Assembly (NCBI GenBank): GCA_022695795.1
Contig: MU404055.1
Location: 1,240,001 to 1,304,000 of the forward strand
From: Biscogniauxia marginata
Lineage: Eukaryota > Ascomycota > Sordariomycetes > Xylariales > Xylariaceae
Direction: 5' to 3'
DNA: 64,000 bases
Below the pieces are notes generated by a model. It did not search any database. It saw only the letters and a program-made list of their open reading frames with translations, and had not been told where the DNA came from. Each line of letters starts with the position of its first letter. Position 1 is the first letter of the stretch. The position numbers and the translations under genes were made by a program. Below, in pieces: positions 16,263-24,928 of this stretch.

Positions 16263-17089
16263 CTACGGGTCGAAATCGAACATGATTCCCTGAGCTCGGG
16301 GTTTCGTTTCCCCAACGTCCATCTGTAGCAGCGTGCCCGTCCACGTGGTCCCGTTCCCTCTTTTCAACTGGTAGTCGCCCACGATGCTAAAGCCGCTGCG
16401 CGCATAATACCTGGCAAAGCATTAGTCATAAAAGTCGACTTCTCCCGAACCAGGCGCGGAGCAAGTCTTGGCTGCGGGGAGGGCGCGGGGGGGACTCACC
16501 GAACAAGCTTTCGATCGTTCCCTGCCCAGCCGTCGACATAGATCCTTCTCTTCCCCTTCCGCTTAGCGTACTCTATGGCCGCCTGGATCAGAGCCCCACC
16601 GGCCCCGTCTCGATGTCTGCCCGTCCTGTAGTCTGTGATCATCACCTCGATATACACGAAGTCGTCATTATTGCCACCCGACGCAAGGTCTAGATGGGCC
16701 TGCGACTTGATGTATTTCGGCACCCAACCCTCTCGTAAGACTATGGCCCCAACCGGGACGAGCCACTGCCCGTCGGAGCCCCTGCGGCTGCGGCAGGCTT
16801 CCGGCACTAGGTCTGGGGTATCGTAAGGTGAGGTTGCTAGCACCGCCTCCACGATGAGAACGCGTAGCGCCTCCCCTTTTCCAGTAGAGTGGTATACTGC
16901 GGACTGCTCCAGCTGCTGCTGCGTCTCCTCCGTAAAGCCTGTTTTCTGCGAAAAGGGAGTCGATCCCCACTGCTCACCGCTCCCTATGGAAGTGAGGTAC
17001 GGGAGGGTCGAATCGAACGCCTCGACGATGAATTGGACGTCATCGGGAACCCGGGCGTTCCGGATGTGGAAACGAGGGGAGGATGCCAT
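16263..17089 (-). CDS. GNAT-family N-acetyltransferase
   Basis: Two exons, 17089-16500 and 16410-16263, around an 89-bp intron (GTGAGT donor, GACTAAT branch, GCCAG acceptor); 245 aa. The N-terminus reads as a GNAT beta1-alpha1 (FHIRNARVPDDVQFIVEAFD). An acetyl-CoA-binding motif A follows (DFVYIEVMITDYRTGRHRDG, then GAGGALIQAAIEYAKRKG), with RxxGxG/A-like spacing. The C-terminal strand GWAGNDRKLVRYYARSGF resembles the usual GNAT motif B with paired Tyr. Family knowledge: transfer of acetyl from acetyl-CoA to an amine; the substrate cannot be read from sequence. It lies about 1 kb from the 3' end of the repeat-protein gene on the same strand. Whether it belongs to that putative RiPP cluster is open. 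Confidence 0.85.
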
Positions 17090-18038: not shown

Positions 18039-18491
18039 TTAGTTGGCTTTGACGGGCTTGTCATAAGCAACATCAGCGTCTAGTTCAGAGCCACGGGCTA
18101 CCTTGACTGGCTTGTCGTAAGCAACATCAGCGTCGAGCTGAGAGTCGCGAGCCACTTTGACGGGCTTATCGTAAGCTACGTCAGCATCAAGCTCGGAGCC
18201 GCGAGCTACCTTGACCGGCTTGTCGTAAGCAACGTCGGCGTCTAGTTCAGAGCCGCGGGCCACTTTGACGGGCTTGTCATAGGCAACATCAGCATCAAGC
18301 TGGGAACCACGGGCTGCCTTGACTGGCTTGTCATAGGCAACGTCGGCATCAAGCTCAGAGTCGCGAGCCACCTTGACGGGTTTGTCGTAGGCGACATCCG
18401 CATCTAGCGCAGAGCCGGCATCCAGAGGGGCAGCAAAGACATTGGAGAGGAGAAAGGGGGCGATAGCCAGAATCCAAGTAGCGGCCTTCAT
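18039..18491 (-). CDS. Secreted tandem-repeat protein, candidate dikaritin-type RiPP precursor
   Basis: Intronless, 150 aa. Residues 1-20 are a signal peptide (MKAATWILAIAPFLLSNVFA, cleavage likely after VFA). After a short APLDAGSA spacer come six complete 18-residue repeats and one truncated copy. Every copy carries the identical core LDADVAYDKPVK; only the linker varies (VAR or AAR, then G/D-S-E/Q). One Tyr per repeat falls at residues 35, 53, 71, 89, 107, 125 and 143. The linker offers a K-x-A-R site for a kexin/furin-like protease rather than the usual KR. A start at 18662 in the same frame is possible, but a TATATATA box near 18,622-18,634 lies inside that extension and the signal peptide begins at 18491, so I prefer 18491. 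Known family pattern: ustiloxin/phomopsin/asperipin precursors combine a signal peptide, repeated Tyr-containing cores and protease sites, next to a UstYa gene. That matches the divergent neighbour here. Alternative: a repeat-containing secreted effector or cell-wall protein. Confidence 0.85.
   Translation of the reverse strand: MKAATWILAIAPFLLSNVFAAPLDAGSALDADVAYDKPVKVARDSELDADVAYDKPVKAARGSQLDADVAYDKPVKVARGSELDADVAYDKPVKVARGSELDADVAYDKPVKVARDSQLDADVAYDKPVKVARGSELDADVAYDKPVKAN
18042..18407 (-). repeat. 54-bp in-frame tandem repeat (6.8 copies)
   Basis: Seven copies of a 54-nt unit inside the precursor gene. The copies differ mostly by synonymous changes, while the encoded core is invariant in all seven. 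This indicates selection or gene conversion on the peptide rather than a fresh DNA duplication. Confidence 0.95.
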
Positions 18492-19161
18492 GTTGGAAAG
18501 ATGTTGCAGTGATGAGTTAAGGATATCAATGTATTGAACGGTAAGGTGCTTTTCTGGGGGTCTGCAGGTGCGATGATGATGGGTAAGTCCTGACCTTCCT
18601 GAGGCCGGGGAAGGACTGCCCTTGATATATATACGCGTAATTGTCGTGAGAGAACCGGGCATCGGATCACGACATCAAATAAACGTCTTCGTTCTCGTGA
18701 ATGAGGAATTACAGACCACGAGCTAGAACGAGCATCACATCCTTACCTCAGCATGCACCCCTCATCGACGCAAGGTGTTCTCGGTGTGATCGGATGTCTA
18801 TATCATGGTATGGTTGGACGAAGACGTGCCAGCGCTTTGATTATCTAATGCATATGCCGCAGGCTTGCGTAGAGATTGGCATGCGTATAGGCACTTTGGG
18901 GAAAGATGCTCCTAAGAAGGCATGTAAGAATCGAACCATACTCCAAAACACTCTTCAAATGTGTATTAGTCACTCCATAGCACTCTTCCGGTGTGTATTA
19001 GTCACTCTATAGCACCTTGTCGATGTGTATTAGTCAAGAGAGAGAGCTTAACATGAGTCATGCAAGTACTCTAGAGGTTAGAAAAGACCCAAGTCTCGGC
19101 ACTTATAGTTTTCCTAGGAGGTGGCCAGCCCGCCCCGTCTTCAAGTTTTTCATTCTTCACA
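18492..19161. promoter_or_regulatory. Divergent promoter shared by precursor and UstYa-like gene
   Basis: 670 bp between two head-to-head start codons. On the - strand a TATATATA element near 18,622-18,634 sits about 130 bp before the precursor ATG. Towards the + strand gene lies a 32-bp tandem repeat (18,935-19,040). Co-regulation of the two genes is inferred from this arrangement. Confidence 0.6.
18935..19040. repeat. 32-bp tandem repeat in the divergent promoter
   Basis: The string GTGTATTAGTCA recurs at 18,961, 18,993 and 19,025, an exact 32-bp period, with a further degenerate partial copy just before. Units share CACTC(C/T)ATAGCAC. It is non-coding and could be a reiterated transcription-factor site. 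Confidence 0.85.
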
Positions 19162-20500
19162 ATGTCTCCCAGCTCTCTCTCGTTCTCATCCTCAAAGACC
19201 ACCACCATGGAGAAGTCAGAAGGCTACCGGCCCATCGAGCAGCTTGATGATCCCAAGTCGAGCTCTGAGATGGAGGACTCCATGCTGTTAACCGGCGACA
19301 CCGTCCCGCGTCAGCAGCGGCGCTTCAGGCCCCTCGTCCTCCTAGCTGGGGGCTTAGCTCTCGTTGTGTACACTCTCTTCGTCGTTGCCATGACCTCCAA
19401 GGTGGCCCAGAAGAACAGGCTCTACGGGTCTAGAATGCAGAACAGTTAGTCGTCCCCCTTCCAGAAATAGATCGTCATACGTAGTTAGTTAGCCAGCTAA
19501 CCTCGTGTATGAACAGCACTGCTGGATGACTACGTCGAGTATGAGAACCATGTGATGGAACAATGGGAGGACGTGGATCCCAGCGAGCCCGTCTACTTCG
19601 CGGACCCGAGCCCCGAGATTGACCATAACTGGCATGTACTGCTCCAGCGTAAGTTTTCCATTTAATCACCAACCCCGCAACATGAATATATCATTTGCTG
19701 AACAATCTGTAGACCTGAATATTGCCGTACCTCGCAAGGTGATGGAGGACCTAGGGAGGGTAGACGAGGGCATCGAATTCCCAGACGGCACCTTCTTCGC
19801 TTCGGTAATGGTTTACCATCATCTGCACTGTCTCGTAAGTCTGCATCTTCCTGCCCCGCCCCATCTACAACTAGAAACGTCCTGGTACTGTCCTCTAACG
19901 TTCTGCAGAAAACCCTCTACCACCTCCTGCATCCGGAGTACTACGGGATGGACAAGATGACAGACGAGGAGAAGGCCAAGTCGAGAGAGCACACAGGTAA
20001 ATCCCACAGATAACACCCAATCCATCTATCTACTCTCACCATTTTCCTTTTCCTTTTCCCTCTTCATCTTCCAACCCTTCCCCCTCCCCCCCCCCAAAAC
20101 CCAAACCCAAGACTAAACTGATTGCTGACCTCCCCCTTCCCCCTTCCCCCATCCCCCCAGACCACTGTCTCCACATGCTCAAAGAGGCTGTGATGTGCCA
20201 GGGGGACACCACCATCCTGACCATGAAGTGGGCCGAATACGGCGCCCTGCCCATCGGGAACCTGACTACTCCGCACGAGTGCGTCAACTGGGATCGGCTA
20301 GTCGAGGGCGCCGCGACCATGTCGGTGGACGTCTTCGCGAACGGCATGCTCACCCACCCGAAATTCGGTACGTATTTGCATAGGACGAGACAACATTAGC
20401 TTGTACTTCGGTTCGCTGACTTTGAATCTTGGGTTTTTTTTTTTCTCTAGGACCCGTTTTCATTGACGGCCAGTTCGCTCCGGTGCTGAGCCAAAAGTAA
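19162..20500 (+). CDS. UstYa-like (DUF3328) membrane protein, candidate RiPP cyclising oxidase
   Basis: Six exons: 19162-19444, 19517-19648, 19713-19834, 19909-19996, 20161-20367 and 20451-20500. All junctions are phase-consistent and give 293 aa. A second in-frame ATG at 19207 with CCACC context could be used instead. Residues 57-77 form one transmembrane helix after a short cytosolic N-terminus. The lumenal part contains the two hallmark motifs of the UstYa family: HHLHC at 174-178 (HxxHC) and DHCLHML at 209-215, followed by VMCQGDTTILTMKW. The segment before them (DPSPEIDHNWHVLL) is also typical. Family knowledge: UstYa/UstYb-type proteins act on Kex2-processed core peptides in dikaritin pathways and are implicated in oxidative macrocyclisation at Tyr or neighbouring side chains. 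Being divergent from the repeat precursor makes that peptide the obvious substrate (inference). Intron 4 is unusually long (164 bp) and pyrimidine-rich. Confidence 0.92.
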
Positions 20501-21172: not shown

Positions 21173-24100
21173 TTAACCAGAGGTGGTATCCATTGCGTCA
21201 GTAGACGCATTCGCCCTAGCTGCAGCAACTCGCTCAGCCTTCCAAGCCTCAATTCGAGCACGAAGATCGTCAGCAGGGACGACATCATCGATCGTCATTG
21301 GGTTTCGGGTGAAAGGGTCCAATGGGTTCGAAAGAAGTTGCTGGATGATTGTGGATCGGTCAACGATGTTCTGAGAGGGCAGAATGACGGGGTCAGTCAT
21401 CAAATCGCCAATCAGGGGATCCTCAAATTCGTCGGGTATCTCGCCCAAGTCGAGCTCGGCCTGATCTAGCCGTTCCTTTGCCTCCGCAAACTTCTTTCTA
21501 AGCGCATCCCATGCCTCAACTGTCTCCGGTGGCTTTTGGAGACTGTTGCTAAGTAGGCGAGACGCAGTCTCGAAGTTCGAGGGCTTGTACGAGCGTCCAT
21601 CCGCAGCGACCGCGTCAACGAAAGTTTGCTTTGGGCCGAGGTTGAGATAGACATCAACGAAGTCGGATAAGAGAGCCTTGGGGTCGAAATGGTACTTCTT
21701 CGCATCTTCGACTTTGAGTTGACCTCGTTTTGGACCGACCAGGGATTCGAGATTGTAGTTCAGCATACCTGCCAGTCGAGTGACTATCTCGGGCATGGTG
21801 AAGGCATCACGTAGTGTCTCGGTGAACAAGTTCATCATCCCCATTGTCTCGTTGACCAGCTGCATCCAGGACTGGCACTGATGCTCTGCTTGCTCCAGAT
21901 CGGTTCGAATCTTCTCCTTATCCTCATGTGATATGGCCGAATCTTGCAGTTGCTTCTGGTAGTCATGGATCTTTACCAGCTTTGTTAAAGCCTCGTCAAG
22001 CAAGTAGGTTGCATCATTCAGGAGCAGGTTCACAAACTGCACGAAGAATTGCCGGTTGTTTCTGCATTCGTTAGCTTACGTGTCATCCTAGAACCAGACG
22101 CATGCGACTCACCTGCTTTCTCTGCTGAGCTGGCCCTTGTAGACGTTATTGGGCCAGATGGTCTTGATGACCTGGAAAATCTCGTAGCGGATGTTGAACT
22201 TATCATAGAACGCCGAGCTGACACCGCTATGCTCACATTCTGAGAATGTTAGTACATAATAGCCTAGTGACCACGTGGAGCATACCTATGTAGAACTTCA
22301 TAAGCGAATGCAGGAGATGTTCGTTAGCGAATTCCGATCCTATCAGCGTGTCACCCAGAACACCGCGACTGAGATGATACAGTGGCCAGGTACCGGCGAA
22401 GAGCAGCGTAACGAGGGAAGACTTCAAGTATGGGTTCTTGATGTATTCCGAAGATCTCAGAAATGTAATACATAACGTGATAATCTCGTCCCCGACGGCG
22501 GACACCAGAATGTTTGGCAAGAACCTAGCAGATGAGTAAGTGGTGGGCGTGCACGAGTAACCAACAGCGAGTAACGTACCGGAAGACAAACTTGAAATTA
22601 TCCACAACATCCTGAAGGGCATATTCAGGCAGGCAGCTAAACGCATCGGGCTTGTCACCCGAGAGAGGCAGCTTGATAGTCTTGCCAGGCGTATAGTTCG
22701 ATCCACTAGCGACTCTGAGGAGAAAAACAGCGACGTATCGCATGAACTGTAGCGATAACGTCTGCATGCCCTGATCGAGAACCACTCCGTTAATGGCATA
22801 CTTGAGTGCAATGTGTCGTTCCAGAGCATTGATAGTGTTCTGGTGGGAGATCTTGGCCACCGAGAGGCGGAGTGGATCCTAGTCGAGGTTAGCACGTATG
22901 TCCAACTAAGTCCAAACGACAGACTTACATTCTGCATCTTAAGCATTTCCTCTTCCACCTGCTTGATCATACCCTCAATGTACTTAATTTCCCTGTCGAG
23001 GTCTTTCAACTTGCCGTGGGTCGCACCGAGACCGTAGTGGTGGGCTGCTAGAGTCAAGAAAAATACTTCAGAGATGAAGTTAGATGATCCGTCTACCTTC
23101 TTGCGGTAGAAAGCCTCGGAAGTGGCTTGGTCAGCGTTCAACTTGGTCTCGTCACTCATGTCAACCCGGGGACTTCGTCGGAGATACTCAATGTCCACCT
23201 TGTCTATCTTGGAAAAAGTGGCATCCATGAAAGGTTGGCAGAGCTGGTCCAGGATCGCTGTCACGTTGACCATAAACCCATCAGAGGCAACTTCCGTAGC
23301 CTTGACACGCATTGCCCGTCGCTTGTGGTTGCTGTTCAAAATGAAAGCAAACCAATCGAGAGTCTGATTTCGGGATGACGCACTAGCTCGAACGAAGGCG
23401 TTGATTATAGTTGTCAGATCATCCTGGTGAGCCTTCAGAGTCATCTGCAGCGCAGTCTGCCCAGTCTTGATATGGCCTTGATCAATTGTTCGAGGGCTGT
23501 TGAAGTAAGACTTGGCAACATCACTTTGAAGTGGCGAGAGCCGGAAGAATGGCCCTAGAATGGTCTGCATCTCGGAGGCCACTGCAATGTGCTCTTTTGT
23601 CATATTCGATGTTGGCGCAACTCGAAAGTGCGGGTGCTTTGCAAGGGCCTCTAGCAACGGCGGGAATCTCGCATACGTGAGAAGGGACTAAACGGAATCA
23701 GATCTGTCTGGCATATTGGATGTATACGATGTCTTACGTTGATATATGGCTTATAATCATCATTCATCGTCATATTGGCGACTCTCTTGCTCATGTCGAC
23801 CATGGCGTTAGTGAAGACTGTAGCAACAGAATCTTCGGTCTTTACGCGCAGCGCAGCTTCGGTGAAGAAGTCCAGACATACGCCATCCTCGTTCTCATGA
23901 TGGCGAAGAAGATATGGCACCAAGGTGTCGTGGGTCGGATTGAGCTCTCGGCTGCTTTTGGGTAAGTACTACTAGGCGTAAAAATTAGGGTTAATTGAAG
24001 AACAAATTACATACCTGAAGAGCTCAGGCATGACGATGGAGAAAATGCAGTTGCTCATGCAAAGCCGTTTGGCCTCGCTCAAAACCTCTTGTTTGTACGG

Positions 24101-24928
24101 GGACGGCTGTCTCATCGCGCGGCTGGCTCGCATGATGCGCTTCCAGCATGGCAAGAAGTAGTCTAGAAGCGGCTGGTCATTCGGTACATACCTGCCTGCC
24201 TCGAGCATGGCGACATCCACATTGGACACGTTGAGCTTCAGCGGCTCACCCGCCTTTACCAGGTCTACCTTCAGCTCTGGTAGGAAAGTTAACTTGGTGC
24301 CGCGGCTGTCCACCAGCCGATCCGGGTCAGGAGTGAATCGGAAGATTTCGCTCAACACCCGGTCGGCCCAGTCCTCGAGCGATTCTTGGTTCGTGGAGAA
24401 CATCTTTTTGGGAGGAGGTGCTGCTGCTTGTGGTCTGTCAACAGCCGAAGCTGATCTCTTGTTGTTGTGAGGGTTACCTGGATCCCTAGATGTGCCACCT
24501 CCGGATTCTACACTATTTTTTACGCCCAGTTGAGAGAAGGGGTTCTCTGTTGAGGGTGTGGTGGTGTTGGCGGTGGTGTTGGTGGCGGTGGTAGAAGAGG
24601 AGGAGGAGGAGGAGGGAGGGACGGTATTTATTCTCGGATTCTGTGCTGTATTTGGCTGGTCGGCTTCTTGTTTCGGGGAATTTGGTCTCGAGGGCTCGGC
24701 AGAGGCAGGAGCAGAAGGCCCAGGTGTTGCGGCTGGGGTGCTGGATCGCGAAGTAGAGGGTGCCGAGTTCATACCACCCAACTTGGCGAGACGTCTCTGG
24801 CGCATCTATTCCAGCATAGTTAGTGACCTTGTATACAAATATGCCAGGATGGGTACGTGGTCCTCTTTGTCGCATACCTGCTCTTGCGGCGGCAAGGTCG
24901 GCTCCGCCGACTGCTCGTTTGGATCCAT
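21173..24928 (-). CDS. ufd2: Ubiquitin conjugation factor E4 (Ufd2), U-box ligase
   Basis: Eight exons: 24928-24878, 24805-24015, 23951-23738, 23687-22929, 22878-22580, 22524-22286, 22239-22113 and 22061-21173. All phases agree and give 1122 aa. The first exon encodes only MDPNEQSAEPTLPPQEQ. Residues about 20-140 are Ser/Thr/Pro-rich with a poly-Ser run. From about 140 the Ufd2 core begins, including the NPTHDTLVPYLLRHHENEDG and FYDKFNIRYEIFQVIKTIW signatures. The C-terminal U-box is at about 1036-1110 (EFEDPLIGDLMTDPVILPSQ, with the SNPLDPFTRNPM loop). Known role: elongates ubiquitin chains on substrates already mono- or oligo-ubiquitinated, works with Cdc48/p97, and feeds the ubiquitin-fusion-degradation and ER quality-control routes. 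Length is normal for the fungal family. The only oddity is the tiny first exon. Confidence 0.97.

Follow-up and report, generated by a model that had tools for sequence, protein, structure and literature searches.

A repeat-precursor ORF and a DUF3328/UstYa-like gene, which lie divergently with 670-715 bp between them in Biscogniauxia marginata, probably constitute a single two-gene fungal RiPP pathway of dikaritin-like type. The precursor has a signal-peptide-like start and seven cores that are invariant at the protein level, and it is adjoined by a divergent gene for an intact DUF3328 protein. The unusual feature of the pair is the missing dibasic site. The whole stretch of DNA analysed, 64,000 nucleotides in length, is referred to here as the window, and in its numbering the features of the pair and its neighbours are as follows.

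18039..18491, minus strand: intron-less precursor ORF of 150 aa (ATG at 18491, stop end 18039), read from the sequence
18432..18491, minus strand: signal-peptide-like N terminus MKAATWILAIAPFLLSNVFA, from hydropathy and the sequence by eye
18048..18407, minus strand: array of seven LDADVAYDKPVK cores with six spacers [V/A]AR[G/D]S[E/Q], from the ORF and Tandem Repeats Finder
18372-18407, 18318-18353, 18264-18299, 18210-18245, 18156-18191, 18102-18137 and 18048-18083, minus strand: the individual LDADVAYDKPVK cores
18626..18633, minus strand: putative TATA box TATATATA, about 135 bp upstream of the precursor ATG, by eye
18940..19035, no strand assigned: three direct 32-bp repeats in the region upstream of both genes, from a repeat search
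19162..19444, plus strand: exon 1 of the UstYa-like gene (likelier start 19207)
19517..19648, plus strand: exon 2
19713..19834, plus strand: exon 3, the end of which falls inside the first HxxHC region (HHLHC)
19909..19996, plus strand: exon 4, the end of which encodes the start of HTDHC
20161..20367, plus strand: exon 5, with the second motif HTDHC
20451..20500, plus strand: exon 6, with the stop
16496..17089, minus strand: left neighbour, a weak GNAT acetyltransferase match below the Pfam cut-off
21173..24805, minus strand: right neighbour, an Ufd2/U-box ubiquitin elongation factor (housekeeping), from Pfam

Exact copies of LDADVAYDKPVK are present at residues 29, 47, 65, 83, 101, 119 and 137 of the precursor, i.e. 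seven copies placed 18 residues apart, and the corresponding 54-bp array was found independently by Tandem Repeats Finder (18049-18417, score 409). Each core has one Tyr (7 in the precursor overall) and there is no Cys. The array ends two residues past the last core, which has no trailing spacer Arg, as if the spacer Arg serves only to separate units. The N terminus is hydrophobic (best 12-residue mean hydropathy of 2.1) and resembles a signal peptide. It may be noted that the next in-frame ATG upstream of the precursor start (18662) is located upstream of the putative TATA box. An earlier note made from the letters of this DNA had described a 150-aa secreted-type protein with seven invariant cores of one Tyr each, and this description is borne out. 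Among the seven cores 11 nucleotides are variable, all of them at third codon positions, and the substitutions (at least 15) are all synonymous, with a pN of 0 over 585 sites vs a pS of 0.74. The all-synonymous pattern has a P of ~3e-10 if hits fall randomly over sites, a calculation that ignores mutation bias and gene conversion. In the six spacers, 3 of the 6 residues are variable (pN 0.11). Constraint at the protein level is thus stronger on the core than on the spacer. It could be argued that the array is a non-coding minisatellite that is open by chance, given that the 7994 candidates scored included no annotated protein corresponding to it. We reject this reading as hardly credible on the third-position pattern, seen in 11 of 11 variable core nucleotides; the codon score of the frame 18042-18674 (53.5) is also coding-like.

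A comparison with annotated proteins, in which the 7994 candidates that share most words were scored, gave no precursor homologue at E <= 1, and since the B. marginata copy itself was also absent, the precursor gene is probably unannotated. In the B. marginata genome the precursor matched at its own locus only, with no paralogues, so that of the two proteins it is the enzyme alone that has known relatives. The core strings of the precursor were not found in the literature searched, which supports the earlier view of the core as different from known ones. A link to the cyclic pentapeptide of Biscogniauxia papillata (Phe, three Leu and Ile, as given in the available text of PMC12783183) was considered and ruled out, as the core in the window has neither Phe nor Ile.

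For the UstYa-like gene, splicing of the six exons across five GT-AG introns (64-164 bp) leaves a single open frame, either 19162..20500 (293 aa) or 19207..20500 (278 aa). The 278 aa of the spliced protein are 100% identical to NCBI F5X99DRAFT_404041 of B. marginata, a model of 293 aa. As 9 of the 21 aligned relatives start at the second-ATG column (19207), the 278-aa form is the likelier product. PF11807 matches residues 36-240 of this form (2.3e-43, 149 bits vs a curated cut-off of 25). The whole HxxHC(x)nHxxHC motif is present, with HHLHC at 174 and HTDHC at 207 (293-aa numbering). In the alignment, which covers 22 of 38 related proteins, H207, H210, C211, C221 and C249 are invariant and H174, H177 and C178 nearly so. 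Two HxxHC motifs were counted in 27 of the 38 related proteins, and among the other 11 are short fragments and models with apparent splicing errors. The enzyme of Biscogniauxia sp. FL1348 (F4775DRAFT_588567) is 72% identical to the protein in the window. As a separate observation, the public models P0002 and P0006, both close UstYa relatives, are without the first HxxHC where other rows have it, and these models probably carry wrong splice sites.

The AlphaFold model of the UstYa-like protein is of moderate quality (mean pLDDT 69, pTM 0.56). It predicts a helix at 56-87, with pLDDT >90 in the middle, which would be the single membrane helix near the N terminus, and it places the copper motifs on predicted helices 171-186 and 198-219. 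As modelled, the protein fits what has been described for CctR, the DUF3328 cyclochlorotine hydroxylase. According to the available parts of PMC12435403, CctR has one membrane helix, its HxxHC(x)nHxxHC forms a two-copper centre, alanine mutants of the motif lose activity, this activity is copper- and O2-dependent, and CctR is a dimer. CctR hydroxylates a non-ribosomal peptide; what the enzyme in the window shares with it is the one predicted membrane helix and the HxxHC(x)nHxxHC motif. No sequence relative was found among solved structures, and a Foldseek search with the model returned 25 matches up to E 10, with 0 at E <= 0.001. The head-to-head six-exon gene for a single-TM protein with HxxHC, as read in the earlier note, is confirmed by the divergent layout, the PF11807 match, both motifs and the predicted helix.

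Outside the pair, a Pfam scan of 19 window frames, limited in its coverage by introns, recognised no tyrosinase, transporter or peptidase. We also looked for a wider cluster and rejected it, the recognised frames being the weak GNAT match, Ufd2, a DOCK-type protein, an epimerase/reductase type ~12 kb from the pair, an amidase, a DEAH helicase and a JmjC protein, none of which is typical of RiPP clusters. The GNAT-like neighbour is probably outside the system, and the Ufd2 neighbour is not a component of it. A 64-base piece of the direct repeats at 18940-19035 has its sole genome match at its own place, and these repeats may be a control element or a chance minisatellite.

The two genes could nevertheless be unconnected in function, with the repeat protein cut to linear, unmodified secreted peptides that act as signals or effectors, and with the DUF3328 enzyme belonging to another pathway. 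In the portions of the survey PMC7329392 available, 78% of repeat precursors have no nearby DUF3328 gene. The same survey, covering 1461 assemblies, also reports that DUF3328 genes peak adjoining repeat precursors and that such repeats more often contain Tyr (65.6% vs 38.2%). We regard linear peptides as unlikely here, as the two genes are immediate divergent neighbours and Tyr is retained in 7 of 7 copies. A PF11807 profile search of the B. marginata genome (45.3 Mb) gave at least 34 exon-level matches at at least 17 sites, and at this density we estimate the chance for a random gene to be placed like this to be well under 1%.

Elsewhere in the genome, 9.9 kb around each of 16 DUF3328 sites besides the window was sampled, with 9 stretches of 9.9 kb away from these sites as controls. 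A repeat precursor was found within ~5 kb at 4 of the 16 other DUF3328 sites vs 0 of the 9 controls, by thresholds for the array count that are our own and on numbers that are small. The controls showed no array and one weak scattered match in a long frame (L034, 852-aa). Along with the window array, the following were counted.

L010:2646-2909 (C15), minus strand: repeat precursor ENWNAAAWSNFVKSYVD with three copies of NWNAAAWSNFVKSYVD and KR separators, ~2 kb from a DUF3328 match
L013:4444-4671 (C8), minus strand: repeat ORF DDVVVADGF with KKR/RR/RRR separators, between two DUF3328 matches
L017:6358-7243 (C21), plus strand: fused precursor, TNWYADSASG, with dibasic separators, divergent to a UstYa gene
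L020:913-1539 (C39), minus strand: precursor PQFVIDGYEETAPSSE with seven PQFVIDGYEET copies and a signal-peptide-like start, ~3 kb from a DUF3328 match

Left out of this count were L023 (a low-complexity frame without Met), the plus strand of L013 and the minus strand of L017 (antisense of counted arrays) and the control L034 (scattered words). Five arrays in ~168 kb near DUF3328 genes vs none in ~143 kb elsewhere has a probability of ~0.046 if random, hand-calculated post hoc, and the enrichment is suggestive only. The presence of repeat precursors beside DUF3328 genes in B. marginata agrees with the association published in PMC7329392, as far as its available text goes. The separators in L020 are mostly KR or KKR with one KH. 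Of the five arrays, just one lacks dibasic sites, namely that of the window.

The protein at L017 is NCBI F5X99DRAFT_407538 (P0039; 278 aa), in which a signal-peptide-like start and three NWY cores are followed by a C-terminal domain of ~190 aa. This domain carries HQYHC and HAIHC, and the gene is divergent to a UstYa gene, the same arrangement as in the window pair. With its relatives (P0040-P0077) it makes a family of 39 proteins, 37 of which have two HxxHC motifs (P0061 has one, P0077 none). By the pattern WY.[DES]S, one to ten cores were found in 30 of the 39 and none in 9; two of these nine were read, P0071 showing related IWYKT repeats and P0060 being a bare domain. Likeness to UstYa (PF11807) is weak and below the Pfam cut-off; 22 members were scanned, of which 15 reached E <= 1 (best 1.6e-4). 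DUF6348 matches 9 of the 22 (best 1.3e-9), over the repeats in the first member. A profile comparison of the fused domain with UstYa aligned both HxxHC motifs (E 0.0011, with a probability of only 21%), and the structure model of the L017 protein is poor (pLDDT 54). The core strings of the family were not found in the literature searched, nor was any title on such proteins among the literature matches listed. From these sequences it would appear that DUF3328 also occurs fused to the precursor, and the L017 protein is possibly a self-modifying DUF3328-like precursor. Alternatively, the fused domain may have no activity of its own and serve to deliver the substrate to the adjoining UstYa. In the available text of PMC12186524, plant BURP cyclases occur fused and split. 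The DUF3328 site is likened to BURP in PMC12435403, and the word "fused" is absent from the available parts of that paper. If it is self-modifying, the fused precursor may be more novel than the window pair.

Regarding cleavage, neither KR, RR, KK nor RK occurs anywhere in the 150-aa precursor, and all six Arg sit in K[V/A]AR[G/D]S[E/Q]. The precursor therefore falls outside the published definition of Kex2-processed repeat proteins, and the parallel drawn to these in the earlier note does not hold. Since there is no dibasic site, release of the cores would need the K-x-A-R site. The Kex2 motif tolerates variation at P2 given an aliphatic P4 (LxxR), according to the available text of PMC8528282. 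This extended motif is not found in the precursor, where P1 is Arg, but P4 is Lys and P2 is Ala. A study on the dual P4 specificity of Kex2 is said to describe basic residues as a second P4 class. Kex2 cutting at K-x-A-R of the precursor is thus putative; the convertase domain PF01483 has one matching place in the B. marginata genome. The lack of any dibasic Kex2 site would also suit a repeat protein that is never cut and is secreted as a charged cell-surface or matrix protein. Such a role is quite improbable, in our view, because a single Arg is at a fixed place in 6 of 6 spacers while nearby spacer residues vary and the 12-residue core is constant. Single-Arg separators also occur in the related setting of the fused family (28 of 128: 16 LxxR and 12 other), where a coarse pattern classed a further 98 as dibasic and 2 as none.

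On matching the pair, read as a RiPP pathway, with known systems, we compared it with the available descriptions in PMC6514808 and PMC7329392. Asperipin-2a of Aspergillus flavus (aprA, aprY, aprT, aprR; PMC6514808) likewise pairs a repeat precursor, whose core contains Tyr, with one DUF3328 enzyme (aprY), but its core is FYYTGY and its cluster has a transporter and a reductase, neither of which was recognised adjoining the window pair. The dikaritins ustiloxin B and phomopsin (PMC6514808) share the signal-peptide-like start, many identical one-Tyr cores and DUF3328 genes. They differ in the KR sites of UstA and in having several DUF3328 genes and a tyrosinase, as against one DUF3328 gene, no KR and no recognised tyrosinase in the window. 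KEPs with DUF3328 neighbours (PMC7329392) are also of secreted type, with at least 3 tandem repeats of at least 8 aa and a DUF3328 gene within 15 genes. They are defined by KR, KK, RK or RR between repeats and by an annotated protein, and the window precursor has neither. Among dikaritin features, the window thus shows repeated cores, a signal-peptide-like start (hydropathy and by eye) and a close DUF3328 gene, and KR-type Kex2 sites between the cores are not found in its precursor. The dikaritin-type system proposed in the earlier note therefore stands as regards a multi-core precursor beside an intact DUF3328/UstYa gene, and not as regards Kex2 dibasic processing.

In the pathway that we propose, the precursor would enter the secretory pathway. 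Its cleavage to 18-residue units would fall to an Arg-specific convertase, either Kex2 at the non-canonical K-[V/A]-A-R or another protease, and the flanks of the units would be trimmed by exopeptidases. A lumen-facing copper DUF3328 enzyme would then carry out C-H oxidation in the core, most plausibly by linking Tyr through its side chain to a carbon close by, with loss of 2 H, and a small peptide would be secreted as the end product. Tyr cross-linking specifically has, in our judgement, somewhat short of an even chance. The computed [M+H]+ is 1333.700 for LDADVAYDKPVK and 1331.684 for the form minus 2 H, and for GSELDADVAYDKPVK the values are 1606.796 and 1604.780, respectively; a product of fewer residues than the 12 of the core is also possible.

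If the two-gene reading is right, the pair would allow copper DUF3328 chemistry to be tested on a new core in a system of just two genes. A wider proposal, which we offer tentatively and with considerable doubt, is that some DUF3328-linked RiPP precursors form a sub-class of their own, in which a relaxed Kex2 or another protease frees the cores at single-Arg K-x-A-R sites and nowhere else. Such a sub-class would be invisible to surveys based on dibasic sites and annotated proteins. The window locus would be the first example known to us and would yield a new oxidised Tyr peptide, and in the same genome the precursor fused to its own DUF3328-like domain might correspond, on the fungal side, to the fused BURP cyclases of plants. 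Self-modification by the DUF3328-like domain of the fused family would be directly testable. As described in their available text, the Umemura survey (PMC7329392) required KR, KK, RK or RR and covered annotated proteins only, and the Le Marquer survey (PMC6339444) required KR or RR, then KK. Because both require dibasic sites, both would miss the window precursor. If our reading is right, surveys that need dibasic sites and annotated proteins would undercount fungal RiPPs.
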